A stretch of 64,000 nt of DNA from NCBI RefSeq assembly GCF_001899645.1, contig NZ_MKVV01000044.1, positions 192,544 to 256,543 on the forward strand, read 5' to 3'. Source of the stretch: Pseudonocardia sp. 73-21 (lineage in GTDB: Bacteria > Actinomycetota > Actinomycetes > Mycobacteriales > Pseudonocardiaceae). The position numbers were made by a program, and so were the translations under genes. Below the pieces are notes generated by a model. That model saw nothing but the letters and a program-made list of their open reading frames with translations. It made no database searches and was not told where the DNA came from. This document shows positions 22,628 through 46,401 of the stretch, in pieces (the stretch's first letter is position 1; the number at the start of each line of letters is the position of its first letter).

Positions 22628-23087
22628 TCACCCGTTGACCGTGACGAAGGAGAAGCCGAAGCGCTCGCGGCCCAGCGGCAACGTGCCGTCCCGCGGAGTG
22701 ACGACCGCCCCCGGGTACGCGACGGCGTCGGCGTGCCGCGCGCCAGGGTCGGCATCCGGTGCCCAGCCCGAGCTCCGGCCGCCCGCCGGTGAGCTCGTCG
22801 ATCGCGGCCACCTCGCGGGCGAGCAGCGCCGACCTCCAGAACCGGCGTTGAGCACGAACGGCCCACCCCCGGGCGCACCGTGACCTCCGCGGCCCGGACC
22901 AGGGCCGGGAACGGGGCCGGTAGGTGCGGGTGGTCGGGCGCGTGGATCGTGTCGTCATCGTCGTCACCGTCGTCACCGTCGTCACCGTCGTCACCGTCGT
23001 CACCGTCGTCTCGGCGAGCCGGCACTGTGTCGGTCCCGCCCGGCGCGAACATGTGATCCCGAACCGGAACGGCCGGATGTCGATCAC
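22628..23087 (-). pseudogene. Decayed luciferase-like (F420-type) oxidoreductase
   Basis: Fragments of a LLM-class flavin/F420-dependent oxidoreductase can be read in different frames: RPFRFGIT at the GTG start (23087), HAPDHPHLPAPFPALVRAAE, then LLAREVAAIDELTGGRPELG, and finally RERFGFSFVTVNG. About half the usual ~300 residues, including the middle of the barrel, are missing, and at least two frameshifts separate the pieces. A 9-bp repeat expansion replaces residues after the first strand. The old start overlaps the FUSC stop (GTGA), so it was once the second gene of that operon. Confidence 0.75.
22951..23010. repeat. 9-bp microsatellite (GTCGTCACC)n
   Basis: Five perfect tandem copies of GTCGTCACC (22960-23004), one degenerate copy before and a partial one after. 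They lie inside the decayed oxidoreductase. On the minus strand the unit reads as repeated Thr-Thr-Val or Asp-Asp-Gly depending on frame. Confidence 0.9.
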
Positions 23088-25546
23088 ACTCCCGCGCCGA
23101 CCCCGATCTCGTCCAGCGTGACGTCGTGGCGGCGCAACCGGTCGGGATCCGCGGCCACGCGCGCCACCGCCGAGTCGTGGTGCGGCGCCCCGACCACCAC
23201 GAGGTAGGTGCCCGGGCACGGGACGTCGAGGTGGTAGCGGCCGGCGCGGTCGAGCCGCGTGCCACCCACCTGGCTGCCGCGCTCGTCCACCAGCGTGACG
23301 GCGCCGTCGACGACGGGGCCGCCCGACGGGCCGGTGACCACCCCGGCCAGCCCCGTCCCGACGGCCGGGGTCTCCCGGCGCGGCGCGACGAGCGCGACGT
23401 CGAGGACGGCGTCGGAGCCGAAGTCGCTGGTGGTGAGCCGGTGCAGCAACTGCTGCAGGTGGATCAGGGTGCGGCCGACGTGGCCGGGCTCGTCGGTCGC
23501 GAACAGCACGGCGTCGGCGCGTGCGAGGGCGTCGAGCACCTCGGGATCGGCGCTGGCCGCGGTGAGCCCGGCGAGGTCGCGGGTGGCCGCGGCCAGCGCC
23601 GCGGTCGCCTGCGCCAGGTGGGTGGGCACGGCCGGGTCCCGGCGCACCTGGGACGCCAGCGCGCGGGAGTGGGTGGCCGCCGCCGCGTAGAGCGTGAGCG
23701 CGCGGCGGACCTTCGTGGGGTCGTTGTCGAACAGCATCGGCCGGGTCAACGGCGCGGCCACGAGGTTCAGCTGCCGCAGCGCGTTCTCGACGGTGCGGGC
23801 GAGCCCGTCGAGGTCGGTGGTCTCGGCCTCGTCGTCGGGCACCTCGACGGTCGGGTCGACCCGCCGGGTCACGGCGGCCAGCATGTCGGCCAGCGAGTTC
23901 AGCAGCGTCGCCCGGGCGGCCCGGACGGTGTCGCGGGTGCTCACCGGGGCCACCAGCAGCGCCACCAGGATGCCGACGGCCGCCCCGATCGCGGTCTCCT
24001 CCAGCCGCAGCACGAGCAGCCCGTCGCTGAACTCGTTGAGCACGCTGTAGAGCTGCCCCACCATGATCGTGATGAAGAAGATCATGAAGGCGTAGGAGAC
24101 CTTGATCAGGTAGAAGCCGAAGAACATGCAGAGCAGGATCGTGATCAGCACCAGGGAGGTGCTGCCCACCGTCAGGCTCGCCACCCAGATCGAGGCGAAC
24201 AGCCCCACCAGCGTGCCGACCACGCGGTTGACGGCCTTGATCGCGGTCTCCGACCGCGTGGCCGTGCCGGTGAACGCGAGGAACGCGGCGAGCACCGCCC
24301 AGTAGTAGCGCTGCTGCGAGAGCAGGCTGCCGAGCACGATCGCGAGGCCACCGGCGAGGGCGACCTGCACGGCCTGGCGGGAGACCAGGTCGAGCCGGCC
24401 CAGCGGGTTCCAGCGCCCGGTGCGCGGGGCGACGTCGCGGGCGACGGCGGGCGAGCCCGGAAGGTTGCCCATCATCATCACGACGGCCGGCTCGAACGAC
24501 TCGGCCGCGTCCGGCGTGGTCGCGGGCACGCGGCTGTTGCGCCGCAGGTCGCAGTACTCCAGGACCGCCGTGGCGGCGCGGCGCACGGCGACCTCGGTCG
24601 CCCGGTCCCGCAACAGCCGCGCCTCCCGCTCGGCCGCCGCGTGGTCGCCGGCGGCGAGCCGGCGGGCGACGTGGGCCACCTGTGCCGACGCGGCCCGGGG
24701 ACCGGCTCCGGCGTCGAGGGTGAGCGCCGAGTGCGCGACGGCGTCGATCGCGAGCTGCGCGTCGACGAGGTGGCGGCGCAGTGCCGGGGCCGACCATCCC
24801 GTAGGGGTCGCGTCGACGTCGGCCAGCGAGCTGTCCACCATCAGCGCGCACTCCGCCAGCCGCAGCTGCCGGTCGTGCAGCCGGGCGCGGATCCGGCGAC
24901 GGCGCCGGACCTCACGCGGCTCAGCCTCCAGCAGCTCCGCCGCCAGCCCTACGACCTCGCGACTGCGGGCGCCGAACGAGCGCCGCATCCGCGTGACGGT
25001 CCGGCGCGGGTTCGCCTTCAGCACCGTGACCGACAGCAGCAGGATCCACGCCGAGGCGACGACGACGAACAGCAGCAGCCCCGGCAGCATGGCCAGGGTC
25101 GCCCCGAGGAACGAGGCGAAGAAGTAGCCCATCCAGCCCATGAAGCCGTAGAAGAAGAACGACGGACCGAAGCGCCGCACGAACACCGCGGCGAACATGA
25201 CCACCACGAACACGGCGAGCATCACGACGTGGCTGCCCGCGACGGCGACGCCCGCGAGCATGCCGACCCCGATGGCCACCGGGAAGAACACGGCCGTGCG
25301 CGCCTTCTCCAGCGCCGACCCGCTGGCCAGCCCCATCGACCCCATCATCGCCATGACGGCGCCCAGCAGCATCGCGATCAGCGTGCCCTGGGCCCCGGCG
25401 TGGGTCGCCGTGGCGACGAGGTACTCCACCCCCATCGCCGTCGCCAGCGCGACGACCGCGTTGCCCGCCATCCGCAGGCGGCCCAGACCCGGGTCGGAGG
25501 CGACCACGCGGTCCCTGACCCGCCGTCCCCGCTCACGTAGTGCCAT
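23084..25546 (-). CDS. FUSC-family membrane protein with C-terminal carboxypeptidase-regulatory-like domain
   Basis: An 820-residue protein. Two blocks of membrane helices (about 25-165 and 390-540) flank a soluble alpha-helical region, the plan of fusaric-acid-resistance/AaeB-type proteins; ALEKARTAVFFPVAIGVGM and QRYYWAVLAAFLAFTGTATR are typical. Residues ~540-725 are helical. The last ~85 residues form a beta-sandwich of the carboxypeptidase-regulatory/CnaB kind: LAGVVTGPSGGPVVDGAVTL then GRYHLDVPCPGTYLVVVG. The role is probably export of aromatic acids or envelope-stress relief. The start is ATG 25546, divergent from a MarR gene. Confidence 0.85.
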   Translation of the reverse strand: MALRERGRRVRDRVVASDPGLGRLRMAGNAVVALATAMGVEYLVATATHAGAQGTLIAMLLGAVMAMMGSMGLASGSALEKARTAVFFPVAIGVGMLAGVAVAGSHVVMLAVFVVVMFAAVFVRRFGPSFFFYGFMGWMGYFFASFLGATLAMLPGLLLFVVVASAWILLLSVTVLKANPRRTVTRMRRSFGARSREVVGLAAELLEAEPREVRRRRRIRARLHDRQLRLAECALMVDSSLADVDATPTGWSAPALRRHLVDAQLAIDAVAHSALTLDAGAGPRAASAQVAHVARRLAAGDHAAAEREARLLRDRATEVAVRRAATAVLEYCDLRRNSRVPATTPDAAESFEPAVVMMMGNLPGSPAVARDVAPRTGRWNPLGRLDLVSRQAVQVALAGGLAIVLGSLLSQQRYYWAVLAAFLAFTGTATRSETAIKAVNRVVGTLVGLFASIWVASLTVGSTSLVLITILLCMFFGFYLIKVSYAFMIFFITIMVGQLYSVLNEFSDGLLVLRLEETAIGAAVGILVALLVAPVSTRDTVRAARATLLNSLADMLAAVTRRVDPTVEVPDDEAETTDLDGLARTVENALRQLNLVAAPLTRPMLFDNDPTKVRRALTLYAAAATHSRALASQVRRDPAVPTHLAQATAALAAATRDLAGLTAASADPEVLDALARADAVLFATDEPGHVGRTLIHLQQLLHRLTTSDFGSDAVLDVALVAPRRETPAVGTGLAGVVTGPSGGPVVDGAVTLVDERGSQVGGTRLDRAGRYHLDVPCPGTYLVVVGAPHHDSAVARVAADPDRLRRHDVTLDEIGVGAGV

Positions 25547-25580
25547 CAGTCGCAACCCCGAATTCCTGAAGCATGTATGG

Positions 25581-25598
25581 TACCGACAATAGCCGGTA
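25581..25598. promoter_or_regulatory. Probable MarR operator in FUSC/MarR divergent region
   Basis: TACCG (25581-25585) and CGGTA (25594-25598) form an 18-bp palindrome; a second GCCGGTA follows at 25602. They lie in the 84-base gap between the FUSC and MarR starts, the normal place for a MarR site controlling both genes. Confidence 0.6.
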
Positions 25599-25630
25599 TC
25601 GTGCCGGTAATCGACAGGAGGAGGGCTCCT

Positions 25631-26086
25631 GTGAGGACGAGCACCACGCAGCCGGTCGACGTGATCGAGCTGCAGACGGCGGTACTCCGGCGCAACGTCG
25701 AGATGGTGCGCCGCCGCGGCGAGGTCTACGTCGAGCTCGACCCCGCCGAGTACCTGCTGCTCCGCACGCTCGACGACCTCGGCCCCATGGACATCCGCAC
25801 GCTGGCCTCGGCGGTCGGGGTCGACCCGTCCACCGCGGGCCGGCAGATCGGGGCGATGCACGCCGCCGGGTTCGTCGACCGCGCCCCCGCCGCCGAGGAC
25901 CGCCGCCGCACGATCATCAGCGTCACGGCCGAGGGCCTGCGCCGCACCGAGGCCGTCCGCGACCGCCGCCGCGAGAACATCCGCGAGCTCCTCGAGGACT
26001 GGTCCCCGGAGGACCTGGAGACGCTCGGCGTCATGTTCGGCCGCTACAACGCGGCGGTCTCGGACAGGTACGTCACCCACACGTAG
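25631..26086 (+). CDS. MarR-family transcriptional regulator
   Basis: A 151-residue winged-helix protein: LLRTLDDLGPMDIRTLASAV, then VDPSTAGRQIGAMHAAGFVD for the recognition helix and AAEDRRRTIISVTAEG for the wing. The start is GTG 25631 behind a strong AGGAGG; the frame is open farther upstream but would run through the operator. It is likely the local repressor of the divergent FUSC gene. The 2OG-oxygenase operon begins 34 bases downstream and may be partly cotranscribed. Confidence 0.85.
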   Translation: MRTSTTQPVDVIELQTAVLRRNVEMVRRRGEVYVELDPAEYLLLRTLDDLGPMDIRTLASAVGVDPSTAGRQIGAMHAAGFVDRAPAAEDRRRTIISVTAEGLRRTEAVRDRRRENIRELLEDWSPEDLETLGVMFGRYNAAVSDRYVTHT

Positions 26087-26120: not shown

Positions 26121-26933
26121 GTGATCGACCCAGACATGATCGATGTGGATCTGTCCGACCCGACCCTGGTGGCCCGGGTCCGTGAGGAGCTGGTGGCCAC
26201 CGGCTGCTGCGTGATCCCCGACCTCGTGCGGGCCGACCTCCGCGAGACCCTGCGGCGGGAGGGCGCCGCCGTGGCGCCGCTCGCCTACTACGACGTCGAG
26301 ACGGTGAACGTCTACAACACCGAACCCGACGACACGCTGCCCGCCGACCACCCCGCCCGCATCCCGATGCGGCGCGGCAACGCCTTCGTCGCGCGCGACA
26401 CGATCCCGGCCGGCGCGCTGATCCAGCAGCTCTACACGGACGCGGCGTTCCAGGCGTTCGTCGCCGCCTGCTTCGGGCTGCCCCAGGTCCACCCGCTGGC
26501 CGACCCGCTCTCGGGCCTGACCCTCAACGTCGTGACGCCCGGCCGCAGCCACCCGTGGCACTTCGACACCAACGAGTTCACCGTCAGCATGCTGACGCAG
26601 GAACCCGAGGGCGGCGGGGTCTTCGAGTACTGCCCGAACATCCGGACCGCCCGGGCGGAGAACGTGGCCGACGTGCGCGCCGTGCTGGACGGCGACCGGG
26701 AACGGGTCCGCGGCCTCACCCTGCGGCCAGGCGATCTCCAGCTGTTCCGGGGCCGCTACTCGCTGCACCGCGTGAGCCCCGTGGAGGGCGGTACCGACCG
26801 CCACTCGGCGATCTTCGCCTACAGCGAGCGGCCCGACGTGATCGGTTCGCCCGCCCGCACGCGGCAGCTGTTCGGCCGCGTCACCCCCGCGCACCTGGGC
26901 GCTACGTCCCGGGTCGACCAGCTGATGGACTAG
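26121..26933 (+). CDS. 2-oxoglutarate/Fe(II) oxygenase, HalD/BesD-like hydroxylase
   Basis: A 270-residue non-haem iron oxygenase. The facial triad is visible as His147-x-Asp149 in HPWHFDTNEF and His216 in SLHRVSP, with Arg227 as the probable 2OG-binding residue. The layout (AYYDVETVNVYNTEPDD, then IPMRRGNAFVARDTIPAGAL) resembles proteins near the free-amino-acid radical halogenases HalD/BesD. Those halogenases have Gly in place of the Asp; here Asp149 is kept, so hydroxylation is expected. GTG 26121 is the likely start (ATG 26136 possible). It is the first gene of a tight trio; the next gene starts at the base after its stop. Confidence 0.8.
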   Translation: MIDPDMIDVDLSDPTLVARVREELVATGCCVIPDLVRADLRETLRREGAAVAPLAYYDVETVNVYNTEPDDTLPADHPARIPMRRGNAFVARDTIPAGALIQQLYTDAAFQAFVAACFGLPQVHPLADPLSGLTLNVVTPGRSHPWHFDTNEFTVSMLTQEPEGGGVFEYCPNIRTARAENVADVRAVLDGDRERVRGLTLRPGDLQLFRGRYSLHRVSPVEGGTDRHSAIFAYSERPDVIGSPARTRQLFGRVTPAHLGATSRVDQLMD

Positions 26934-28679
26934 ATGAGGACGAACGTGGATCTGTCGACCCGCACCTTCGGCAACGAGGACCACCTCCCGCGCGTGCCGC
27001 TCCCCACCCTCGACGACACCTGCGACCGGTTCCTGGAGTGGTGCGCACCGCTGCTGACCGCCGACGAGCTGGCCACCACCGAGAAGACCGTCGCGGCGTT
27101 CCGCGACGGGCCGGGCCCGGACCTGCACGCCCAGCTCGCGGCCTACGACGCCCGGCCCGACACGGCGAGCTGGCTCGACGCGTTCTGGAGGCAGCGCTAC
27201 CTGGGCCGACGCGACCGCATCGCGCTCAACGCCAACTTCTTCTTCCTCTTCGAGGACTCCCCGCTGGGCCAGATCGAGCGGGCGGCCCGGCTCGTCGCCG
27301 CGTCGGTGGCGTACAAGCTCAGCATCGACGACGAGACCCTGCCGCCGGTCGTCCAACGCGGGCAGGCCTTGTCGATGGAGCAGAACAAGTACCTGTTCTC
27401 CGCCACCCGCATCCCCGGTGACCCGTTGGACAGCTCCCGCAACCCGTACTCCGACGCGTGGCCGGGCCCGTCGCAGGCGCGGCACATCCTCGTCCTGCAC
27501 GACGGCAACGCCCTCGCGGTCGACGTGATCAGCCCCGAGGGCCGGCCCTACGCCGTCGACGAGATCGCGGCCGGGCTGCGCGCCGCGGTGGCCGCGAGCC
27601 CGACCCGCGGGCCCGCGGTCGGGCACCTGACGACGAAGGCGCGCGCCGAGTGGGCGGCGAGCCGGACGACGCTGCTGCCGGCCAACGCCGACGCGCTCGA
27701 CACCCTCGAGACGGCCCTGTTCTGCGTCTGCCTCGAGGACCTCACGCCGTCGAGCCCCCTCGAAGCCTCCGACCAGCTCCTGCACGGCGACAGCGGCAAC
27801 CGGTGGTTCGACAAGTCCGTCTCGCTCATCGTGTTCGCCGACGGCACCGCCGGCTACAACGGCGAGCACTGCAAGCTCGACGGCACGACCGTGATCGCCT
27901 ACCTCGACACCGTCCTGGAGACCCCCGAACCCACCGACCCGGCCGGGCTCGGCGAGACACCCGCCGTCGCGCCCGTCGCGTTCGTGCTCGACGACGCCCA
28001 GCGCGCCGACATCGACACCGCCGGGAAGGCGTTCGCCGACTACGCCGCCGACACCGCCACCTCCACGCTGTCGGTGGACTTCAGCGCCGAGCGCGCCAAG
28101 GCGCTGAAGTGCTCGCCCGACGCGTTCGCGCAGATGGCGTTCCAGCTCGCCCACGTCCGTGCGAAAGGCCACGTCGGCGCCACCTACGAGTCGATCGCCA
28201 CGCGCGCGTTCAGGCACGGGCGGACCGAGGCGATGCGGGTGGTGACGCCGGAGATCCTGGCGTTCACGGCGGCGACCGGACCCGACGAACGTCGCAGGGC
28301 CTTCCGGGCCGCCGCCGACAAGCACGTCGCCCGCGCCAAGGAGTGCCAGGCCGGGCTCGCCCCCGAGCAGCACCTGTGGGAGCTGCAGCTGATCGCGGCG
28401 CGGCAGGGCCACGACGTCGACCCCCTGTACGGCTCGCCGGGCTGGACGATCATGCGCGACGACTACCTGTCGACCAGCGCCGTGCCGTCACCGCACGTGA
28501 AGTACTGGGGGTTCGGCTCCACCAGCGAGAAGTGCATCGGGGTGGGCTACGCGATGATGCCGGGCCGCTTCGACCTCTACCTGAGCACGCCGCGGGCCGT
28601 GAGCGAGCAGATGGGCATCTTCGCCGTGGCGCTCGCCGACGCCGTGCGCGAACTGGAGGAGCTGCTCGCCGATGCCTGA
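26934..28679 (+). CDS. Choline/carnitine O-acyltransferase family enzyme
   Basis: A 581-residue member of the carnitine acyltransferase family (PF00755), full length for the fold. It has catalytic His312 in YNGEHCKLDGT, the carnitine-binding block TYESIATRAFRHGRTE (417-432), and the STS motif in DYLSTSAVPSP (513-515), plus LPRVPLPTLDDTCDRFLEW at the start as in the eukaryotic enzymes. It would move an acyl group between CoA and the hydroxyl of carnitine or a carnitine-like hydroxy-betaine. Such enzymes are uncommon in bacteria. There is no targeting signal, so it is cytosolic. It starts directly after the oxygenase stop and overlaps the methyltransferase by 8 bases. Confidence 0.88.
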   Translation: MRTNVDLSTRTFGNEDHLPRVPLPTLDDTCDRFLEWCAPLLTADELATTEKTVAAFRDGPGPDLHAQLAAYDARPDTASWLDAFWRQRYLGRRDRIALNANFFFLFEDSPLGQIERAARLVAASVAYKLSIDDETLPPVVQRGQALSMEQNKYLFSATRIPGDPLDSSRNPYSDAWPGPSQARHILVLHDGNALAVDVISPEGRPYAVDEIAAGLRAAVAASPTRGPAVGHLTTKARAEWAASRTTLLPANADALDTLETALFCVCLEDLTPSSPLEASDQLLHGDSGNRWFDKSVSLIVFADGTAGYNGEHCKLDGTTVIAYLDTVLETPEPTDPAGLGETPAVAPVAFVLDDAQRADIDTAGKAFADYAADTATSTLSVDFSAERAKALKCSPDAFAQMAFQLAHVRAKGHVGATYESIATRAFRHGRTEAMRVVTPEILAFTAATGPDERRRAFRAAADKHVARAKECQAGLAPEQHLWELQLIAARQGHDVDPLYGSPGWTIMRDDYLSTSAVPSPHVKYWGFGSTSEKCIGVGYAMMPGRFDLYLSTPRAVSEQMGIFAVALADAVRELEELLADA

Positions 28680-29505
28680 CCCGCTGAGCGCCGAGAGCAA
28701 GGCGGACTTCAGCACGATCTACACGCAGACCGATCCGCGCGGCTACTTCCGCACGCTGCGGCTGCTGGACTACCAGGTGCCGCAGCACGCGAAGCCGGTG
28801 ATCGAGGCGGCGCTGGAGGCGTCCGGGAACCGCACGGTGCTCGACGTCTGCTGCTCGTACGGCATCAACGCGGCGCTGCTGCGCCTCGACGTCGACCTGG
28901 AGACGCTCGGCGCCCGGGCGGCCGACCCGGCGCGGGTCGGGCTGGACCCGGAGTCGGTGATCACCTCCGACGCGGCCTTCCACGCCGAGCACCTGCGCCG
29001 CCCCGACCTGACGGTCCTCGGCCTCGACGCCTCCGCGCCCGCCATCGACTACGGCGTGCGCACCGGGCTGCTCGCGAACGGCTGGGCCGAGGACCTGGAG
29101 TCGACCGCCCCGTCCCCGGCGCTGGCCACGGGGCTGCGCGACGTCGGGCTCGTCGTCTGCACGGGCGGGGTGGGCTACGTCGGCCGCGACACGTTCGCCC
29201 GCATCCTGGGCGCCGTCGGAGCACCGCAGCAGCTCCGGCTCGCGGTGTTCGTCCTGCGCGTCTTCGACTACACGGAGATCTCGGCGGTGTTCGAGCCCTA
29301 CGGCCTGGTGACGGAGAAGCTGCCCGGCACGTACCGGCAACGCCGCTTCGCCGACCGCGGCGAGCAGGACGCGGCGGTCCACGACGTGCGGGCGCGGGGC
29401 CTGGACCCGACGGGCAAGGAGGCCGCGGGCTGGTACCACGCCGACTGCTGGCTGACCCGCCCGGTGACGGCGGCCCCGGTCAGGATCCCGCCGGCCGCAG
29501 GCTGA
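28672..29505 (+). CDS. Class I SAM-dependent methyltransferase-like protein of the acyltransferase operon
   Basis: A 277-residue protein with a SAM-binding motif I VLDVCCSYGINAALLR (56-71), motif II VLGLDASAPAIDYG (115-128) and DVGLVVCTGGVGYVG at the post-II strand. The Cys-Cys in motif I and the CTGG-type motif are unusual. The N-terminal helical region (SKADFSTIYTQTDPRGYFRT) probably caps the substrate. Its ATG lies inside the acyltransferase end (8-base overlap), so the genes must work together. N-methylation of an amino acid is my inference from context. Confidence 0.75.
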   Translation: MPDPLSAESKADFSTIYTQTDPRGYFRTLRLLDYQVPQHAKPVIEAALEASGNRTVLDVCCSYGINAALLRLDVDLETLGARAADPARVGLDPESVITSDAAFHAEHLRRPDLTVLGLDASAPAIDYGVRTGLLANGWAEDLESTAPSPALATGLRDVGLVVCTGGVGYVGRDTFARILGAVGAPQQLRLAVFVLRVFDYTEISAVFEPYGLVTEKLPGTYRQRRFADRGEQDAAVHDVRARGLDPTGKEAAGWYHADCWLTRPVTAAPVRIPPAAG

Positions 29506-39158: not shown

Positions 39159-40781
39159 GTGAGCACGGTCGCCGAGGTCGTCGGCGCCGTGATCGCGCAG
39201 CTCGGCGTCGGACACGCGTTCGGGGTCGTGGGCAGCGGCAACTTCCACGTCACCAACGCGTTGCGCGGGCACGGCGTCCCGTTCACCGCCGCGCGTCACG
39301 AGGGCGGGGCGGCGACGATGGCCGACGCCTTCGCGCGGACCTCCGGCGATGTCGCCGTCCTGACGCTGCACCAGGGCTGCGGGCTGACCAACGCGATCAC
39401 CGGCATCACCGAGGCCGCCAAGAGCCGCACGCCGCTGCTGGTGCTGGCCGCCGACACCGGTGGGGCCGCGGTACGGTCGAACTTCCGCATCGACCAGGAC
39501 GCGCTGGTCGCGTCCGTCGGCGCCGTCGCGGAGCGGGTGCACTCGGCCGCGTCCGCGGTGGCCGACGTCGTGCGCGCCTACGGGACCTGCCGCGGGCAGC
39601 GTCGGACGGTGGTGCTCAGCCTGCCGCTCGACGTGCAGGAACAGCCCTGCGCACTCACCGAGGCGACGTTCGTCGAACGTCTTCCGGCCCGACCCCACGC
39701 CGACGCCGTGACGGCCCTGGCCGCGCTGCTCGACAGCGCCGAGCGACCCGTGTTCATCGCGGGCCGCGGCGCCCGGCACGCCGGCCCGGAGCTGGCCGCG
39801 CTCGCCGACACCTGCGGGGCGCTGGTGGCCACCTCCGCCGTCGCGAACGGGCTGTTCACCGGCCACGAGTGGAGCCTCGGCATCTCCGGCGGGTTCGCCA
39901 CCGACCTGGCGGCGGAGCTGATCACGGGCGCCGACCTCGTCGTGGCCTGGGGCGCGTCGCTGACGATGTGGACCACCCGCCACGGCGCCCTGCTCGGCGA
40001 CGGGGCCACGGTCGTGCAGGTGGACGACACGCCGTCGGCGATCGGCGCGCACCGTCCCGTGGACCTGGGGGTGCTCGGGGACGTGACGCTCACGGCAGCC
40101 GACGTCGCGGCGGTGATCAGCGCGAGGCCGGGATACCGGACGTCCGAGATCGGGAAGCGGATCGCCGCCGAGGGCCGGTGGACGCAGATCCCGGTGCCCA
40201 CCTCGTCCGAGCCGTCGCGGATCGACCCGCGCACGCTGTCCGCGGCCCTCGACGCCCTGCTGCCCGCCGAGCGCACGGTGGCGGTCGACTCCGGCAACTT
40301 CATGGGCTATCCCAGTGCCTACCTGGCCGTGCCCGACGCAGCGGGGTTCTGCTTCACGCAGAGCTTCCAGTCGATCGGGCTCGGCCTGGCCACCGCTCTC
40401 GGGGCCGCCATCGCCCGCCCGGACCGGCTCACCGTCGCGGCGTTGGGCGACGGCGGGTTCCTCATGGGGATCTCCGAGCTGGAGACGGCCGTCCGGCTCG
40501 GCCTGGGGATGCTGATCGTGGTCTACGACGACGCCGGCTACGGGGCGGAGTTCCACCACTTCGAGGGCGCCGACCACGGCACCGTCCGCTTCCCGGACGC
40601 CGACCTGGCCGCGATCGCCGCGGGGTACGGCTGCGACGCCGTCACGGTGCGGTCCGAGGGCGACCTCGACGCCCTCCGCAAGTGGCTGGACGGGCCGCGG
40701 GAGCGTCCGATGTTCGTCGACGCCAAGGTCCGCACGGACGAGGCGTCCTGGTGGCTGGTGGAGGCGTTCCGTGGGCACTGA
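39159..40781 (+). CDS. Thiamine-diphosphate-dependent decarboxylase/synthase-like enzyme
   Basis: A 540-residue enzyme with the three domains of the acetolactate synthase/benzoylformate decarboxylase family. Catalytic Glu48 is in AARHEGGAATMADAFAR. The central domain includes RPVFIAGRGARHAG. The ThDP/Mg site runs from GDGGFLMGISELETAV (~430) to DDAGYGAEFHHFEG, where the usual final Asn of the GDG-N motif is Asp. GTG 39159 follows CGGAGGGGA. Lying between a cyclic-amide hydrolase and an FAD oxidoreductase, it could decarboxylate an aryl-glyoxylate such as isatinate; this is inference. Confidence 0.8.
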   Translation: MSTVAEVVGAVIAQLGVGHAFGVVGSGNFHVTNALRGHGVPFTAARHEGGAATMADAFARTSGDVAVLTLHQGCGLTNAITGITEAAKSRTPLLVLAADTGGAAVRSNFRIDQDALVASVGAVAERVHSAASAVADVVRAYGTCRGQRRTVVLSLPLDVQEQPCALTEATFVERLPARPHADAVTALAALLDSAERPVFIAGRGARHAGPELAALADTCGALVATSAVANGLFTGHEWSLGISGGFATDLAAELITGADLVVAWGASLTMWTTRHGALLGDGATVVQVDDTPSAIGAHRPVDLGVLGDVTLTAADVAAVISARPGYRTSEIGKRIAAEGRWTQIPVPTSSEPSRIDPRTLSAALDALLPAERTVAVDSGNFMGYPSAYLAVPDAAGFCFTQSFQSIGLGLATALGAAIARPDRLTVAALGDGGFLMGISELETAVRLGLGMLIVVYDDAGYGAEFHHFEGADHGTVRFPDADLAAIAAGYGCDAVTVRSEGDLDALRKWLDGPRERPMFVDAKVRTDEASWWLVEAFRGH

Positions 40782-42369
40782 CAGCGCTGATGCGGTCGTG
40801 ATCGGGGCCGGGATCAACGGCATGGCCGCCGCGGCCCGGCTCGCGGCCGGTGGGTGGAGCGTCGCCCTGGTGGACGGCGCCGACGACATCGGCGGCTTCA
40901 TCGCCACCGGGGAGCGCACGCTGCCCGGTTACCGCCACGACACCTACTCGTCGTGGCACCCGCTGTTCGTCACCGGGCCCGTGTACGCGGAGTTCGGCGA
41001 GGCGCTGCTCCGGCACGGGCTGTCCTACGCCAACACCGACGGCCCGCTGACGGCGTCGGTGGCCGACGACGGCGCGGTCGCCCTCGCGCACCGCGACGTC
41101 GAGGAGACGGTGGCCGGGTTCGAGCACGCCGAGGATCGCGACGCCTACCGGGCGATGATCGCCGGGTTCTTCGCGCACGCGGAGCAGATCGGCGGCCTGC
41201 TCGGAACGGAGCTGCACTCGACGGCGGCGTGGAAGCCGCTGTTCGGGCTGGTCCGGGGCGGACGCCCGGTCGTGGAGGGCTACGTCCGCGACGCCGCCAC
41301 GAGCGGCCGGTCCTGGATGCGCGGCCGGTTCCGCGGCCCCGAGACCGACCACCTCTGGGCCCCCTGGCTGCTGCACGCCGGCCTCGCCCCCGACGCGGCG
41401 TCGGGTGGGCTGATGGTGCCGATCTTCGCCGCGACGATGCACGCCGCCGGGCTGCCCGTGGTGGTCGGTGGGGCCGGCAACTTCACGGCGGCCTGGCGCG
41501 GACTGCTCGACGAGCTCGGCGTCACCATCCACACCGGACGGACGGTGGAGCGGATCCTGCTGCGCGACGGGACGGCCGCGGGGGTGGCCGGGGACGGCTG
41601 GAGCCTGGCGGCGAACCGGGCCGTGATCGCGTCGGTGACCCCGACGGCGCTGTACGGGTCGCTGCTGCCGGCGGGGTCGGTCCCTTCCCCGGTCTCGGAG
41701 CAGGCCGCCGCCTACCGCCCGGGCCGCGCCGCCGCCCAGCTGCACGTGGCGCTGTCGGGCCCGGTCCCGTGGCGGGACGCCCGGCTGGCGGCGGTGCCGC
41801 TCGTCCACCTCTCGGACGGGTCCGCGTCCACCGGCATCGCGTGCGCCGAGGCCGAGGCGGGGCTGGTCCCGCGGCGCCCGACGGTGGTGGTCGGGCAGCA
41901 GCACGTGCTCGACCCGTCCCGCGTCCCGGCCGGTGCCGCGGCCCTGTGGCTGCAGCTGCAGGAGCTGCCGTTCGCGCCGGTGGGCGACGCGGCCGGGGCC
42001 CTGGACACCGCGCAGGGCTGGGACGAGAAGCTGGCGGCCGGCCTGGCCGACCGGGTTCTGGGCCGGTTGGAGGCCCAGGCCCCGGGCCTGCGCGAGCTGG
42101 TCCTGGGCGTCGACGTGATCACCCCACCGGACCTGTTGTCCCGCAACCCCAACGCCCTCGCCGGCGACCCCTACGGTGGCTCGGCCGAGCTGGACCAGAA
42201 CTTCCTCTGGCGCCCGCTGGCCGCGGCGCCGAAGCACGCCACGCCCGTCGCCCGGCTCTGGCACATCGGCGCGAGCACCCACCCGGGTCCCGGCCTGGGC
42301 GGGGCGAGCGGCCACCTCGTGGCGGGGACGCTCCTGAAGCCGACGATGCGATCCCGCCTGCGCCGCTAG
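40771..42369 (+). CDS. FAD-dependent oxidoreductase, phytoene-desaturase-like
   Basis: A 532-residue flavoprotein. The dinucleotide-binding motif AVVIGAGINGMAAAARLAAG is at residues 8-27, and a C-terminal FAD segment WHIGASTHPGPGLGGASGHL closes the fold, as in CrtI-type amine or carotenoid oxidoreductases. GTG 40771 overlaps the decarboxylase end by 11 bases, which implies coupling. It may oxidise the aldehyde-, amine- or hydroxy-type intermediate of the same pathway; no carotenoid genes are near. Confidence 0.82.
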   Translation: MGTDSADAVVIGAGINGMAAAARLAAGGWSVALVDGADDIGGFIATGERTLPGYRHDTYSSWHPLFVTGPVYAEFGEALLRHGLSYANTDGPLTASVADDGAVALAHRDVEETVAGFEHAEDRDAYRAMIAGFFAHAEQIGGLLGTELHSTAAWKPLFGLVRGGRPVVEGYVRDAATSGRSWMRGRFRGPETDHLWAPWLLHAGLAPDAASGGLMVPIFAATMHAAGLPVVVGGAGNFTAAWRGLLDELGVTIHTGRTVERILLRDGTAAGVAGDGWSLAANRAVIASVTPTALYGSLLPAGSVPSPVSEQAAAYRPGRAAAQLHVALSGPVPWRDARLAAVPLVHLSDGSASTGIACAEAEAGLVPRRPTVVVGQQHVLDPSRVPAGAAALWLQLQELPFAPVGDAAGALDTAQGWDEKLAAGLADRVLGRLEAQAPGLRELVLGVDVITPPDLLSRNPNALAGDPYGGSAELDQNFLWRPLAAAPKHATPVARLWHIGASTHPGPGLGGASGHLVAGTLLKPTMRSRLRR

Positions 42370-42415
42370 ACGCGCGGGAAGGGGTGGGCGTGCCCCCGTC
42401 GGTTATCGTGCTCTC

Positions 42416-43255
42416 GTGACCATCGCTGAGGATGCGGTAGGCGTCTCCGCCCCGCTGCAGCCCCGGGCGCTGATCGTGTCGCTCTACGGGTTGTACGCGC
42501 GCCAGCAGTCGGGGTGGCTGTCCGTCGCCTCCGTCGTGCGGCTGATGGCCCCGTTCGGCGTCGACGGCCAGGCCGTGCGGTCGTCGGTGTCGCGGCTCAA
42601 GCGCCGCGGGCTGCTGATCCCGGAGAAGTCCGGCACCACCGCCGGCTACCGCCTCTCCGACGCCGGCCGCGACATCCTCGCCGAGGGCGACACGCGGATC
42701 TTCGCCCGCCGCCGTGGCACGCTGGACGAGGGCTGGCTGCTCGTCACGTTCTCGGTGCCCGAGTCGGAGCGGGAGAAGCGCCACCTGCTGCGCACGCTGC
42801 TGACCCGGCTGGGCCTGGGGACGGTGGGGGCGGGGCTGTGGATCGCTCCGGCGCACCTCGAACCGGAGGTCACCACCGCGCTGGAACGGGCGGGGCTGCG
42901 CGGGTTCACCGACCTGTTCCGCAGCCACCACGTCACGTCGCGGCCGGCGCGGGAGACCGTGCGCACGTGGTGGGACCTCGACGCCCTCGACGCCGTGTAC
43001 GCGGAGTTCCTCGACCGGTTCGAGCCGGTCCGGGCCCGCTGGACGGCCGACCCGGGCCCGGACTCCCGCGCGTTCACCGACTTCGTGGAGGTCGTGACGG
43101 CCTGGCGCCGCCTGCCCTACCTCGACCCGGGCCTGCCGCTGGAGGTGCTGCCCGTCGGCTGGATCGGGGTGGCGGCGGAGGAGCTGTTCGCCGCCCTGCG
43201 CGAGCGCCTGGCCACCCCGGCCGCCACCCATGCCCGCGCGGTGCTCGCGGGATAG
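42416..43255 (+). CDS. PaaX-family transcriptional regulator
   Basis: A 279-residue regulator of the PaaX type: N-terminal winged helix (ALIVSLYGLYARQQSGWLSV, VDGQAVRSSVSRLKRRGLLI), a PaaX central domain (GWLLVTFSVPESEREKRHLL) and the C-terminal domain with RLPYLDPGLPLEVLPVGWIG. PaaX proteins repress aromatic degradation genes until an aryl-CoA binds; the E. coli ligand is phenylacetyl-CoA. It sits centrally between the isatin-like and aryl-CoA gene blocks, so an aryl-CoA of this pathway is the likely inducer. The start is GTG 42416. Confidence 0.9.
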   Translation: MTIAEDAVGVSAPLQPRALIVSLYGLYARQQSGWLSVASVVRLMAPFGVDGQAVRSSVSRLKRRGLLIPEKSGTTAGYRLSDAGRDILAEGDTRIFARRRGTLDEGWLLVTFSVPESEREKRHLLRTLLTRLGLGTVGAGLWIAPAHLEPEVTTALERAGLRGFTDLFRSHHVTSRPARETVRTWWDLDALDAVYAEFLDRFEPVRARWTADPGPDSRAFTDFVEVVTAWRRLPYLDPGLPLEVLPVGWIGVAAEELFAALRERLATPAATHARAVLAG

Positions 43256-43306
43256 CGACGGCACGAGCGTGGCCACGTCCGCACGGGCGTCACGGCAGGC
43301 GTGCGC

Positions 43307-43717
43307 TCATGGCGACGCTTGTGCGGTGCCCGTCCGGACCGCCGCCACCCCCTGGATCTCGATGAGTGCCTCCGGCTGCCACAACGACGTGACGCCGATG
43401 CCCGCCATCGCCGGGTAGTCGGTGCCCGCCAGCTCCCGCCACACGCGCCCGATCTCCCGGCCGCATCTCTGGTAGTCGGGGATGTCGGTCAGGTAGATCG
43501 TGACGCCGAGCAGGTCCGGCGGCTGCCCACCCGCCGCCCGCAGCGCCGTCAGGAGGTTGGTGAACGCCTGGCGGAACTGCTCGACGATTCCGCCCGGAAC
43601 GATCTTGCCGTCGCCGTCCATCGCGGTCTGCCCCGAGAGGTGGATGGCGTCCCCGTGCCGCACGGCGTGGGTGAAACCGGAGGGCCGGGCCAGCTCCGGC
43701 GGGTTGACGTACTCCAT
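43307..43717 (-). CDS. RidA-family imine/enamine deaminase
   Basis: A 136-residue trimeric YjgF/YER057c/UK114-type protein. Family hallmarks: GFTHAVRHGDAIHLSGQTAM, VEQFRQAFTNLLTALRAAGG, and Arg plus Glu in LIEIQGVAAVR near the C-terminus (the consensus has Glu beside the Arg that binds the carboxylate; here EIQGVAAV). RidA proteins hydrolyse reactive enamines and imines. It is divergent from the cupin gene. In this context it could hydrolyse the amino-cyclohexene product of the monooxygenase-reductase. Confidence 0.87.
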   Translation of the reverse strand: MEYVNPPELARPSGFTHAVRHGDAIHLSGQTAMDGDGKIVPGGIVEQFRQAFTNLLTALRAAGGQPPDLLGVTIYLTDIPDYQRCGREIGRVWRELAGTDYPAMAGIGVTSLWQPEALIEIQGVAAVRTGTAQASP

Positions 43718-43761
43718 CGGCTACTCCTCGACGCGTCGCTCCTGATGTGTTTTCATGACTA

Positions 43762-43783
43762 CCGTAACGAAGACGACATACGG
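43762..43783. promoter_or_regulatory. Inverted repeat CCGTA-N12-TACGG in the RidA/cupin divergent promoter
   Basis: CCGTA (43762-43766) and TACGG (43779-43783) lie 13 bases before the cupin start and 45 bases from the RidA start, in an unusually AT-rich stretch. It is a candidate PaaX site for the aryl-CoA genes; the short arms make this tentative. Confidence 0.35.
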
Positions 43784-43795
43784 AAGCGAGGGTTC

Positions 43796-44227
43796 ATGTC
43801 CACCGATCTGAAGGTCGTCCCGGTCGTCACCCGCAAGGGCCAGGAGTTCGGCGGCACCGAGCAGTCCGGCGGTGCGGTCCGCATCTCCGGCGTCTCCCCC
43901 CAGCACACGCCCGCCACGCGCATCTGGTTCGGCAAGGTGAGCAACGAGCCCGGTTACCGCTCGCTGCCCCACCACCACGGCGAGGCCGAGACCGGCGGCT
44001 ACGTGCTCACCGGCTCCGCCCGCATCTACTTCGGCGAGAACTACTCCGAGTACCTCGACATGACCGAGGGCGACTTCGTGTTCGTGCCGCCGTACATGCC
44101 GCACGTCGAGGCCAACATGAGCACCACCGAGGAGCTCGTCTGGCTCACCTGCCGCACGCCGGACAACATCGTGGTCAACCTCGACGAGGTCGACGACGCC
44201 ACCCTGGCCGGATTCCGGCGCGCATGA
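43796..44227 (+). CDS. Cupin-domain protein of the aryl-CoA cluster
   Basis: A 143-residue single cupin. Motif 1 is LPHHHGEAETGGYVLTGSAR with metal ligands His59-61 and Glu63 and motif 2 is GDFVFVPPYMPHVEAN with His103. It may be a small dioxygenase, isomerase or metal-dependent hydrolase; the cluster context favours a step in ring cleavage or a regulator-like role. ATG 43796 follows CGAGGG. It overlaps the thioesterase by 4 bases. Confidence 0.78.
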   Translation: MSTDLKVVPVVTRKGQEFGGTEQSGGAVRISGVSPQHTPATRIWFGKVSNEPGYRSLPHHHGEAETGGYVLTGSARIYFGENYSEYLDMTEGDFVFVPPYMPHVEANMSTTEELVWLTCRTPDNIVVNLDEVDDATLAGFRRA

Positions 44228-45069
44228 GCACCTCGAAGCCGTTGCTGGAAGTCCTGACCCTGACGCCGGACGGCGACGACACCTTCGTCGGCCACCCCCA
44301 GGTGATCCCGTCCGGCCGCATCTACGGCGGCGAGCTCGTCGCCCGGGCCCAGGTCGCGATGGCCCACACCGTCGGCGACGACAGACGCGTCCACTCGCTC
44401 CACGGGTACTTCCTCCGCGCCGGCGACGTCCACCAGCCCACGCGCTGGGTCGTGCAGCGCCTGCGCGACGGCCGCAGCTTCTCCGCCCGCACCGTCTCGG
44501 CGATGCAGGGCGACCGTGTGCTCTTCCACGCGATGGCGTCGTTCCAGGTACCGGGTCCGGGCGTCGAGCACCAGGACCCGATCCCGGATCTCCCCGACCC
44601 CGAGACGCTGCCGACCTCCGAGGAAGCCCTCAGGGGCACGGACGTCCGGGACACCCACTACTGGTCCCACGACCGCAGCTTCGACATCCGCCACAGCCCC
44701 ACCGCCGTCTACACCGCCGCCGACGGCGAGCCCTCCACCCGTCAGACGGTGTGGCTGCGCGCCTGGGAGTCCCTGCCCGACGACCCGGCCCTGCACCGCA
44801 GCGCCCTCGCCTACGTCTGCGACTACACGATGCTCGAGCCGGTACTGCGCCGGCACGGCGCCGCGTGGGCGGACGACGGCGTCGTCACCGCCAGCCTCGA
44901 CCACGCCATGTGGTGGCACCACGACGGCCGCATGGACGGCTGGGTGGCGCTGGTGCAGGAGTCGCCGATCGCCACCCGCGGACTCGGTCTCGGTACCGCC
45001 CGCCTCTACACCCACGACGGCACTCTGCTGGCCAGCGTCGTCCAGGAAGGCCTCGTGCACCTCCCCTGA
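44224..45069 (+). CDS. Acyl-CoA thioesterase II (TesB-like double hotdog)
   Basis: A 281-residue TesB-type thioesterase. The first hotdog has RIYGGELVARAQVAMAHTVG and SLHGYFLRAGDVHQPTRWVV; the second has ALAYVCDYTMLEPVLRRHG and SLDHAMWWHHDGRMDGWVAL, ending with the family's GLGTARLYTHDGTLLASVVQ. The Asp in CDYT is at the usual catalytic site. It probably releases CoA from dead-end or final acyl-CoAs of the aryl-CoA pathway. It starts with ATGA on the cupin stop. Confidence 0.87.
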   Translation: MSTSKPLLEVLTLTPDGDDTFVGHPQVIPSGRIYGGELVARAQVAMAHTVGDDRRVHSLHGYFLRAGDVHQPTRWVVQRLRDGRSFSARTVSAMQGDRVLFHAMASFQVPGPGVEHQDPIPDLPDPETLPTSEEALRGTDVRDTHYWSHDRSFDIRHSPTAVYTAADGEPSTRQTVWLRAWESLPDDPALHRSALAYVCDYTMLEPVLRRHGAAWADDGVVTASLDHAMWWHHDGRMDGWVALVQESPIATRGLGLGTARLYTHDGTLLASVVQEGLVHLP

Positions 45070-45084
45070 TCTGGAGAATCACCG

Positions 45085-46401
45085 ATGACCGAGCGGCCCT
45101 TCTGGAACCCCAAGACCGAGCAACTGCCCCGCGGGGAGCTGCGCGCCCTCCAGCTCACCAAGCTGCGCCTGCTCGCCGAGTGGGCGCAGGCCCGCAGCCC
45201 GCACTACGAGCGCACGTTCGCCGAGGCCGGGTTCCGCCCCGAGCAGCTGCGCACCTGGGCCGACATCGACCGCATCCCGTTCCTCACCCGCGAGGAGTGG
45301 ATGCGCAGCCAGGACGAGCACCCGCCCTACGGCGAGCTGCCCGTCGTCGGGCCCGAGGCCGCGATCCGCGTCCACACCACCAGCGGCACGTCCGGCCGCA
45401 CGCCGTTGCGGGCTCTGGACAGCCGCAAGGACTGGTCGTGGGCCGCCGAGATGTGGTGCTACGCGCTGTGGGCAGCGGGCGTCCGGCCACGCGACGTCGG
45501 TTACGTCGCGTTCGGCTACGGCTCGTTCATCGGCTTCTGGGGTCTGCACAACGGCCTGGAGAAGCTCGGCGCGCTGACCGTCCCCGGCGGGGCGCAGACC
45601 ACCCCGAGCCGGATCAGGCAGATCGTCGACTTCGGCGCCACCGTCGTCGCGTCCACCCCCACGTACGCGTTGCGTCTGAGCGCCGAGGCCGGGGCGATGG
45701 GCGTCGACCTGCGCAGCGGGTCGGTGCACACCGTGATCCTGTCCGGTGAGCCCGTCGTGGCGGAGACGAAGGCGCTCATCGAGGAGCGCTGGGGCGCCCG
45801 GGCCTACGACACGGCGGGGATGACGGAGATCTCGACGATCTTCATGTTCGAGGCGGCCGACCAGCCCGGCGGCAGCCACGTGATCGAGGACCACTTCATC
45901 GAGCAGGTGATCGACCCCGTGACGGGGGCCGAGGTCGGCTACGGCGAGCGCGGCGAACGCGTCTGCACCTCCTTCGGCCGCAGCACCACACCGCTGCTGC
46001 GCTACCGCACCGCCGACATGGTGGTGAAGGTCCCCAGCCGCACCGCCCGCACCTGGGACCTCTACCAGGGCGGCATCATCGGCCGCGTCGACGACATGAA
46101 GCTCGTGCGCGGCACCAACGTCTACCCCGGCGCGATCGAGGCCATCGTCCGCGGCTTCGACCACATCGAGGAGTTCCAGGTCCGCATCGAGCGGCAGGGC
46201 GACCGCGACGAGATCGTCCTGTGCGTCGAGCCCGTCGCGACGATGGGCGACGAGCCGTGGGGCCGCCTCGCCGCGGATCTCGCGCGCGACCTCGCCGGCG
46301 CCCACGAGGGCCTCCGGTTCCACATCGAGCGCGCCCCGTGCGGCGCCCTGCCCCGCTTCGAGCTCAAGGCCAAGCGGCTGACCGACCTGAGGAGCGTGTG
46401 A
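45085..46401 (+). CDS. PaaK-like aryl-CoA ligase (AMP-forming)
   Basis: A 438-residue enzyme of the phenylacetate-CoA ligase branch of the ANL family. P-loop HTTSGTSGRTPLRAL (~96-110), YDTAGMTEISTIF (A5, around 235) and YRTADMVV (A7), with the C-terminal GRVDDMKLVRGTNVYPGAIE loop that carries the mobile domain. The size and YPGAIE motif fit 2-aminobenzoate- or phenylacetate-CoA ligases. It activates an aromatic acid with ATP and CoA for the downstream monooxygenase-reductase. ATG 45085 follows TGGAGAA. Confidence 0.87.
   Translation: MTERPFWNPKTEQLPRGELRALQLTKLRLLAEWAQARSPHYERTFAEAGFRPEQLRTWADIDRIPFLTREEWMRSQDEHPPYGELPVVGPEAAIRVHTTSGTSGRTPLRALDSRKDWSWAAEMWCYALWAAGVRPRDVGYVAFGYGSFIGFWGLHNGLEKLGALTVPGGAQTTPSRIRQIVDFGATVVASTPTYALRLSAEAGAMGVDLRSGSVHTVILSGEPVVAETKALIEERWGARAYDTAGMTEISTIFMFEAADQPGGSHVIEDHFIEQVIDPVTGAEVGYGERGERVCTSFGRSTTPLLRYRTADMVVKVPSRTARTWDLYQGGIIGRVDDMKLVRGTNVYPGAIEAIVRGFDHIEEFQVRIERQGDRDEIVLCVEPVATMGDEPWGRLAADLARDLAGAHEGLRFHIERAPCGALPRFELKAKRLTDLRSV

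Follow-up and report, generated by a model that had tools for sequence, protein, structure and literature searches.

A conserved actinobacterial unit of a HalD-type oxygenase, a carnitine-acyltransferase relative, and a predicted methyltransferase, possibly leading to an acylated hydroxy-betaine

The DNA considered here, hereafter the window, is a stretch of 64,000 nucleotides from Pseudonocardia sp. 73-21 (contig NZ_MKVV01000044.1, positions 192,544 to 256,543), part of an assembly of 7.09 Mb in 111 contigs. At positions 26121-29505, it carries three genes arranged head to tail on the + strand, which code for a HalD-type oxygenase (OX), a carnitine-acyltransferase relative (CAT), and a predicted methyltransferase (MT). 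The coordinates of the open reading frames (ORFs) bear out the spacing given in an earlier note on this DNA: the gap between OX and CAT is 0 bp, and CAT and MT overlap by 8 bp (stop-start overlap). The start of OX possibly lies five codons further in, where a 265-aa cluster (P0001) shows 100% identity to OX. The named close relatives of both OX and MT include Pseudonocardia.

26121..26933, + strand: OX, 270 aa, GTG start, Fe(II)/2-oxoglutarate (2OG) oxygenase of the HalD/BesD fold, hydroxylase type (HxD...H)
26934..28679, + strand: CAT, 581 aa, ATG start, choline/carnitine O-acyltransferase family protein
28672..29505, + strand: MT, 277 aa, ATG start, predicted class I S-adenosylmethionine (SAM)-dependent methyltransferase

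The trio is a real conserved unit. Its conservation across actinobacterial genomes, which the earlier note had proposed as a check, was followed in three samples. The first comprised the genome that holds the window and relatives, 60 in all, with each of the three proteins as a query. OX was found at 330 bits or more in 18, and CAT adjoins it in all 18 (19 loci, G031 having two), with MT also adjacent in 13; this count leaves out a weak OX match in G050 (20 bits) and an additional copy in G009 (111 bits). The CAT query was here the window protein and not the Pfam family, and divergent PF00755 genes could escape in this sample. A Pfam family search of 246 genomes of the class found PF00755 in 21, of which 20 have a HalD match within 2 kb (the exception is G138); 19 of these 20 clusters also contain MT. 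Finally, PF00755 is present in 35 of 298 genomes of the order, 6 of them already counted; in the 29 further ones, OX stands beside CAT in 28, with MT between the two in 22/28. When the three samples are pooled, OX is found beside CAT in 64 of 67 distinct CAT genomes, and MT as well in 52 of the 64. The Pfam search alone places a HalD-like oxygenase beside PF00755 in 20/21 genomes of the class and in 33/35 of the order. OX and CAT are on the same strand in 61/64 genomes. These linkage counts, taken from homology matches and not from the hand-made gene finder, which mis-sizes some ORFs, exclude a chance association.

The conserved unit is limited to the trio, since the flanking genes of the window seldom recur. 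Genes for a MarR-type regulator, a FUSC protein, a PadR protein, a 235-aa protein, a 110-aa protein, and an MDR dehydrogenase were found again in 1, 1, 0, 0, 0, and 3 of 78 loci, respectively; these loci include six without the OX-CAT pair (L093, L094, L095, L132, L148, L204), some genomes are repeated among them, and some flanks end at contig ends. No transporter or regulator was seen to be retained with the trio in these flanks. A larger biosynthetic cluster was rejected, as no flanking gene of the window occurs in more than 3/78 loci.

OX matches the Pfam family PF23169 (HalD) with 57 bits (cut-off 26), and none of the three proteins matches an NCBIfam model. With the AlphaFold2 model of OX (pLDDT 93), the first 41 rows of a fold search of the PDB are BesD, HalB, HalD, HalA, and Hydrox chains (E from 8.5e-16 to 3.2e-11), headed by BesD (8.5e-16), HalB (3.0e-15), and HalD (4.1e-15), and WelO5 comes in row 42. 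OX is therefore a relative of BesD/HalD and no member of an unrelated PhyH family. For both linkage and fold, the outcomes that the earlier note had named as refuting its proposal did not occur. The predicted fold and the position of the iron site are like those of BesD, HalB, HalD, HalA, and the BesD-like lysine hydroxylase (PDB 6nie, 7u6j, 7u6h, 7jsd), with only 16-20% identity in the structural alignments to the BesD/Hal structures. Four sites of OX are of particular interest:

26508..26510, + strand: Leu130 (Glu in HalB, HalD, HalA, and Hydrox)
26559..26567, + strand: His147-x-Asp149, iron ligands (position by arithmetic from the OX start)
26568..26570, + strand: Thr150 (Asp in HalB, HalD, HalA, and Hydrox)
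26766..26768, + strand: His216, third iron ligand

Residues were counted in sequences covering 80% of the query, contained copies being dropped and the window's own counted, which left 75 OX sequences (the distant relatives L106 and L209 included) and 78 CAT sequences; the residue alignments used 39/46 OX rows, 29/49 CAT rows, and 53/84 MT rows. The iron ligands His147, Asp149, and His216, already picked out in the earlier note, are identical in 75/75 sequences. As the three residues are invariant, the iron site is of the hydroxylase type, and the hydroxylase 7jsd has the HxD...H triad in common with OX. We infer that OX hydroxylates instead of halogenating. A radical halogenase was rejected as a candidate, Asp149 being invariant (75/75) where halogenases have Gly (or Ala). 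Proteins closely related to OX are annotated in public records as "arpA protein" or "HalD/BesD family halogenase," whereas the HxD site predicts a hydroxylase.

The substrate pocket of OX departs from that of its structural relatives. The Glu and Asp common to HalB, HalD, HalA, and Hydrox are replaced by Leu130 (Leu in 74/75) and Thr150 (Thr in 69/75). In BesD, we take these two acidic residues to hold the amino groups of lysine. As both acidic positions are lost, OX probably does not recognise a lysine- or ornithine-type substrate in the way BesD and HalD do, and this part of the earlier proposal finds no support. If the assumed role of the acidic pair holds, the amines of the substrate would be absent, masked, or methylated. 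Speculatively, Glu152, which is nearly invariant (70/75), could hold a cation in place of the lost pair. The bes cluster presumably has no acyltransferase beside its oxygenase, unlike OX.

The wider HalD group extends beyond the trio. HalD matches without CAT occur in four genomes of the class (G199, G259, G268, G288) and are more distant or different members: a profile of the trio OX scores 219 bits in G268 and 146 bits in G288 (in G075, the trio OX reaches 453), and has no match at all in G199 and G259. In G268, a polar amino-acid ABC importer is encoded next to the more distant HalD-family gene (L211:2786-6374). The best transporter model for the binding protein of this importer is the Lys/Arg/Orn subfamily (136 bits, cut-off 256), which is surpassed by a kinase model that has a similar domain (202 bits, cut-off 900). 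The neighbourhood weakly supports an amino-acid-like substrate for the wider HalD group. At another locus (L212:4866-7279), a distant HalD-family oxygenase has a DUF6817 gene on one side and a further 2OG oxygenase (DIOX_N) on the other.

CAT matches PF00755 (Carn_acyltransf) over its full length, with 510 bits over residues 21-563 (cut-off 22.3), and it contains the TYES, GRTE, and STS motifs, so that the earlier description of a complete enzyme with a catalytic His312 stands. Its homology with carnitine O-acetyltransferase (CrAT) and CPT2 (PDB 1nm8, 2h4t) is also full length and extends to the catalytic His, to the Asp and Glu pair of the CoA site, and to the TYES, GRT, and STS motifs. His312, Asp396, Glu419, and Thr431 are identical in 78/78 sequences, and the last Ser of the STS motif is kept in 77/78. 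Three positions matter for the argument:

27867..27869, + strand: His312, position of the catalytic base
28368..28370, + strand: Gln479 (Arg in carnitine transferases, Asn in choline acetyltransferase)
28506..28508, + strand: Trp525 (Met in carnitine acetyltransferase, Gly in CPT2)

CrAT and CPT2 carry at position 479 an Arg (DRHL motif), which we assume to be the contact of the carnitine carboxylate in carnitine transferases. This position is Gln in 77/78 CATs (the CAT of L204 also reads PEQHL), and Arg is found only in L127, a PF00755 outlier from the genome G138, which yielded neither OX nor MT. The replacement of Arg by Gln disfavours, as far as the sequence can tell, carnitine itself as the acceptor, and the carnitine-type acceptor of the earlier note is left unsupported. 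Two positions after the Thr of GRT, Thr in CrAT and CPT2 gives way to Ala (77/78), and their PVVPDG loop corresponds to STSxxC in the window CAT. Choline O-acetyltransferase (ChAT; PDB 2fy2) likewise lacks the Arg, with Asn in "IDNHL," which fits an acceptor without that carboxylate. However, its residues V-D-N correspond to T-E-A in the trio CAT, and the match of CAT to it is lower (163 bits versus 245 for CPT2). Position 525, which we take to be the gate of the acyl pocket, is Phe or Trp in 76/78 sequences, and such bulky residues would favour a short acyl group. In the samples searched, the presence of OX beside nearly every gene of this acyltransferase family suggests what its bacterial branch is for.

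MT has no match to any Pfam family, and its sequence profile has no significant match in the PDB (best E 0.28). Its model (pLDDT 94) adopts the class I SAM-methyltransferase (Rossmann-type) fold, with a motif I:

28843..28863, + strand: motif I of MT, DVCCSYG, residues 58-64

None of the best 50 rows by either of two methods is a fold match that would discriminate between substrates. The Cys-Cys pair of motif I, which the earlier note had found odd, is indeed present, but it is not peculiar to this gene, as it occurs in 14/15 MTs of the window's group and in 23/23 unlinked relatives. It is absent from the other group of CAT-linked MTs (0/15), which have Gly-Cys (13) or Gly-Ser (2) instead.

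These two groups go with two gene orders, OX-CAT-MT and OX-MT-CAT, and the two MT subfamilies lie in separate parts of the MT tree. Among the loci with MT examined by name, the order OX-CAT-MT is that of Pseudonocardia and Saccharopolyspora; OX-MT-CAT is found at other loci, including genomes matching Frankia. One genome with the latter order, G498, is presumably Saccharopolyspora erythraea, in which case both orders would occur within that genus. In the MT tree (53 rows), the OX-MT-CAT group forms a single clade (support 100), and the OX-CAT-MT group forms with two unlinked MTs a clade of 17 rows (support 99); the other 21 unlinked MTs fall outside both. L021 and L128 are labelled as linked in this tree, their loci having CAT and no OX. 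From the sequences, this topology suggests that MT may have been recruited twice. A tree of OX and CAT, built on the 22 loci common to both alignments, places four MT-less loci on the OX-MT-CAT side (support 93, with several open forks), and this nesting points to a loss of MT in these four.

The MT family, whose window member has no Pfam or NCBIfam entry, has further members in Streptomyces, Salinispora, Rubrobacter, and elsewhere, where the DNA examined shows neither OX nor CAT (L039-L087). When the neighbours of unlinked MTs were clustered as ORFs, without annotation, any partner gene in common was confined to groups of close relatives; in this clustering, no ORF could be anchored for L059 and L083. 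In G075, the unit is split: one contig has OX and CAT with a remnant of MT (L131), and another has MT and CAT without OX (L132).

Taken together, the linkage strongly supports a single pathway for the three enzymes. The simplest route using all the parts is to methylate, hydroxylate, and then acylate, the order that the earlier note had put forward and that the parts support on this reading. MT would N-methylate a small amino-acid-like amine to give a betaine, which for the chemistry of this enzyme is a guess. OX would hydroxylate the betaine near the quaternary nitrogen, and the new hydroxyl would be the one onto which CAT moves a short acyl group from CoA. The acceptor would be choline- or carnitine-like (N-C-C-OH unit), and it would have no carboxylate at carnitine's place, as expected from the Gln that replaces Arg in CAT. 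The product would be an O-acyl hydroxy-betaine, with a possible role as an intracellular acyl carrier, a solute, or a signal. The acyl-carnitine-like metabolite deduced in the earlier note is, as a product, reasonable but unproven. That the three enzymes act in one pathway toward a short-chain O-acyl ester of a hydroxylated, N-methylated amino-acid-like metabolite is a proposition for which we see the balance as even.

In the eukaryotic carnitine route, a methylated amine (trimethyllysine) undergoes 2OG-dependent hydroxylation, and the carnitine obtained is then acylated on its hydroxyl. The proposed chemistry of the trio is like this route in its methylated amine, its 2OG hydroxylation, and its acylation of a hydroxyl, but differs from it by a HalD-type oxygenase and by an acyltransferase without the carnitine Arg. 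Genes for trimethyllysine dioxygenase, aldolase, aldehyde dehydrogenase, or BBOX are not among the three, the rest of the genome not having been searched for them.

Several observations weigh against the proposed pathway. The fold of MT matches N-, O-, and C-methyltransferases (EgtD among them) at about equal scores among the matches listed by the two methods. A tree in which all CAT-linked MTs group together is not rejected (p_AU 0.088), which leaves the two recruitments unproven. OX and CAT are on opposite strands in 3/64 genomes (G010, G012, G408), and do not form one operon there. CAT is found without OX in G052 (with MT) and in G324 (without MT), and both CATs keep Gln at position 479, a residue that therefore marks a clade and not the presence of OX. 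The roles that we assign to the pocket residues of OX and CAT, which follow work on CrAT, ChAT, and BesD, are putative. Lastly, an MT profile run on 14 genomes (E 0.001) found MT in three (elsewhere in the genome in G529 and G483, beside CAT in G052), with no match in nine of the 11 OX-CAT genomes that lack an adjacent MT (G001, G002, G010, G012, G027, G486, G544, G433, G408), nor in G138 and G324. OX and CAT are thus the core of the unit, and methylation by this MT, a required step in the earlier note's reading, is either not obligatory or replaced. Because OX-CAT survives without MT, some strains may draw a methylated precursor from elsewhere.

The same distribution bears on the view that OX and CAT are a functional pair acting on a substrate from elsewhere (for example, a betaine from other enzymes or from import), MT being separate and travelling nearby. 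MT is missing from the cluster in 12/64 OX-CAT genomes: among the 11 of these that were searched, nine have none found and two have it elsewhere, and the twelfth, G075, keeps a remnant at this place and an MT beside a second CAT. Moreover, many MT relatives stand alone, 51/64 MT loci having neither OX nor CAT in the DNA examined (a short stretch for some). Yet MT is in the cluster in 52/64 genomes, in two positions and from two subfamilies, it shares a stop-start overlap with CAT in the window, and other neighbours are seldom kept. This separation of MT from the pair seems to us improbable. A less unlikely view, though still well short of probable, is that MT caps a carboxylate or another oxygen or carbon, the nitrogen not being quaternary; a free amino acid would be hydroxylated by OX and acylated by CAT, with MT tailoring it later or separately. 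An enzyme without a family, whose fold is equally like O-, C-, and N-methyltransferases, would suit this, as would the persistence of OX-CAT without MT and the variable order of MT relative to CAT. In contrast, relatives of CAT use quaternary amines (choline and carnitine, according to an excerpt of PMC11852590), and OX lacks both acidic residues that are kept in its four Lys/Orn-acting relatives.

A prokaryotic carnitine route would also account for three linked genes. MT would make a betaine such as gamma-butyrobetaine, OX would stand in for gamma-butyrobetaine hydroxylase, and CAT would be an ordinary carnitine acetyltransferase buffering acyl-CoA. The intact catalytic His and GRTE Thr (78/78) and the last Ser of STS (77/78) agree with such a role. 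Against it stand Gln in place of the carnitine-transferase Arg (77/78) and Ala in place of the Thr of CrAT and CPT2 two positions after GRT (77/78); moreover, the PF00755 outlier without OX (L127, G138) retains the Arg, so that the change goes with the trio CAT clade. Ordinary carnitine acetyltransferase activity combined with carnitine synthesis was set aside on account of the change from Arg to Gln, and we regard this route as very doubtful. Methylation, hydroxylation, and acylation toward a hydroxy-betaine ester other than acylcarnitine is the reading that we retain.

Around the trio, the window contains further genes of possible interest. One of them lies immediately upstream:

25577..26086, + strand: MarR-type regulator (PF01047), 34 bp upstream of OX

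It is possible that this gene is a local regulator of the trio. It lies outside the conserved unit, a relative being present at 1/78 loci (L024). Beside it, a gene for a FUSC-type membrane protein with a C-terminal CarboxypepD_reg domain (23084-25645) accompanies the trio only in L024 among the 78 loci. Further downstream, a run of genes on the + strand (39159-46401) codes for a thiamine-diphosphate enzyme, an FAD oxidoreductase, an acyl-CoA thioesterase, and an AMP-ligase with an AMP-binding_C_2 domain.

The three-enzyme unit is apparently undescribed: it is a new variant built from known families. Among the matches listed in the open-access literature, no paper dealt with it, which is not proof of novelty. 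A wider idea, tentative and in our view on the unlikely side, is that an equivalent of the carnitine system evolved within Actinobacteria itself. Its three genes would form a self-contained unit that turns an amino acid into a novel hydroxy-betaine and charges this acceptor with short acyl groups taken from CoA, giving a bacterial acyl carrier akin in its chemistry to acetylcarnitine and acetylcholine but different from both. The unit lends itself to a clear test on three enzymes: the ester to look for has a short acyl chain, and its acceptor is unlikely to be carnitine or lysine. If the hydroxy-betaine ester exists, soil actinomycetes, and also Frankia, known for its nitrogen-fixing symbiosis, would possess a counterpart of acylcarnitine whose synthesis bypasses the eukaryotic route.

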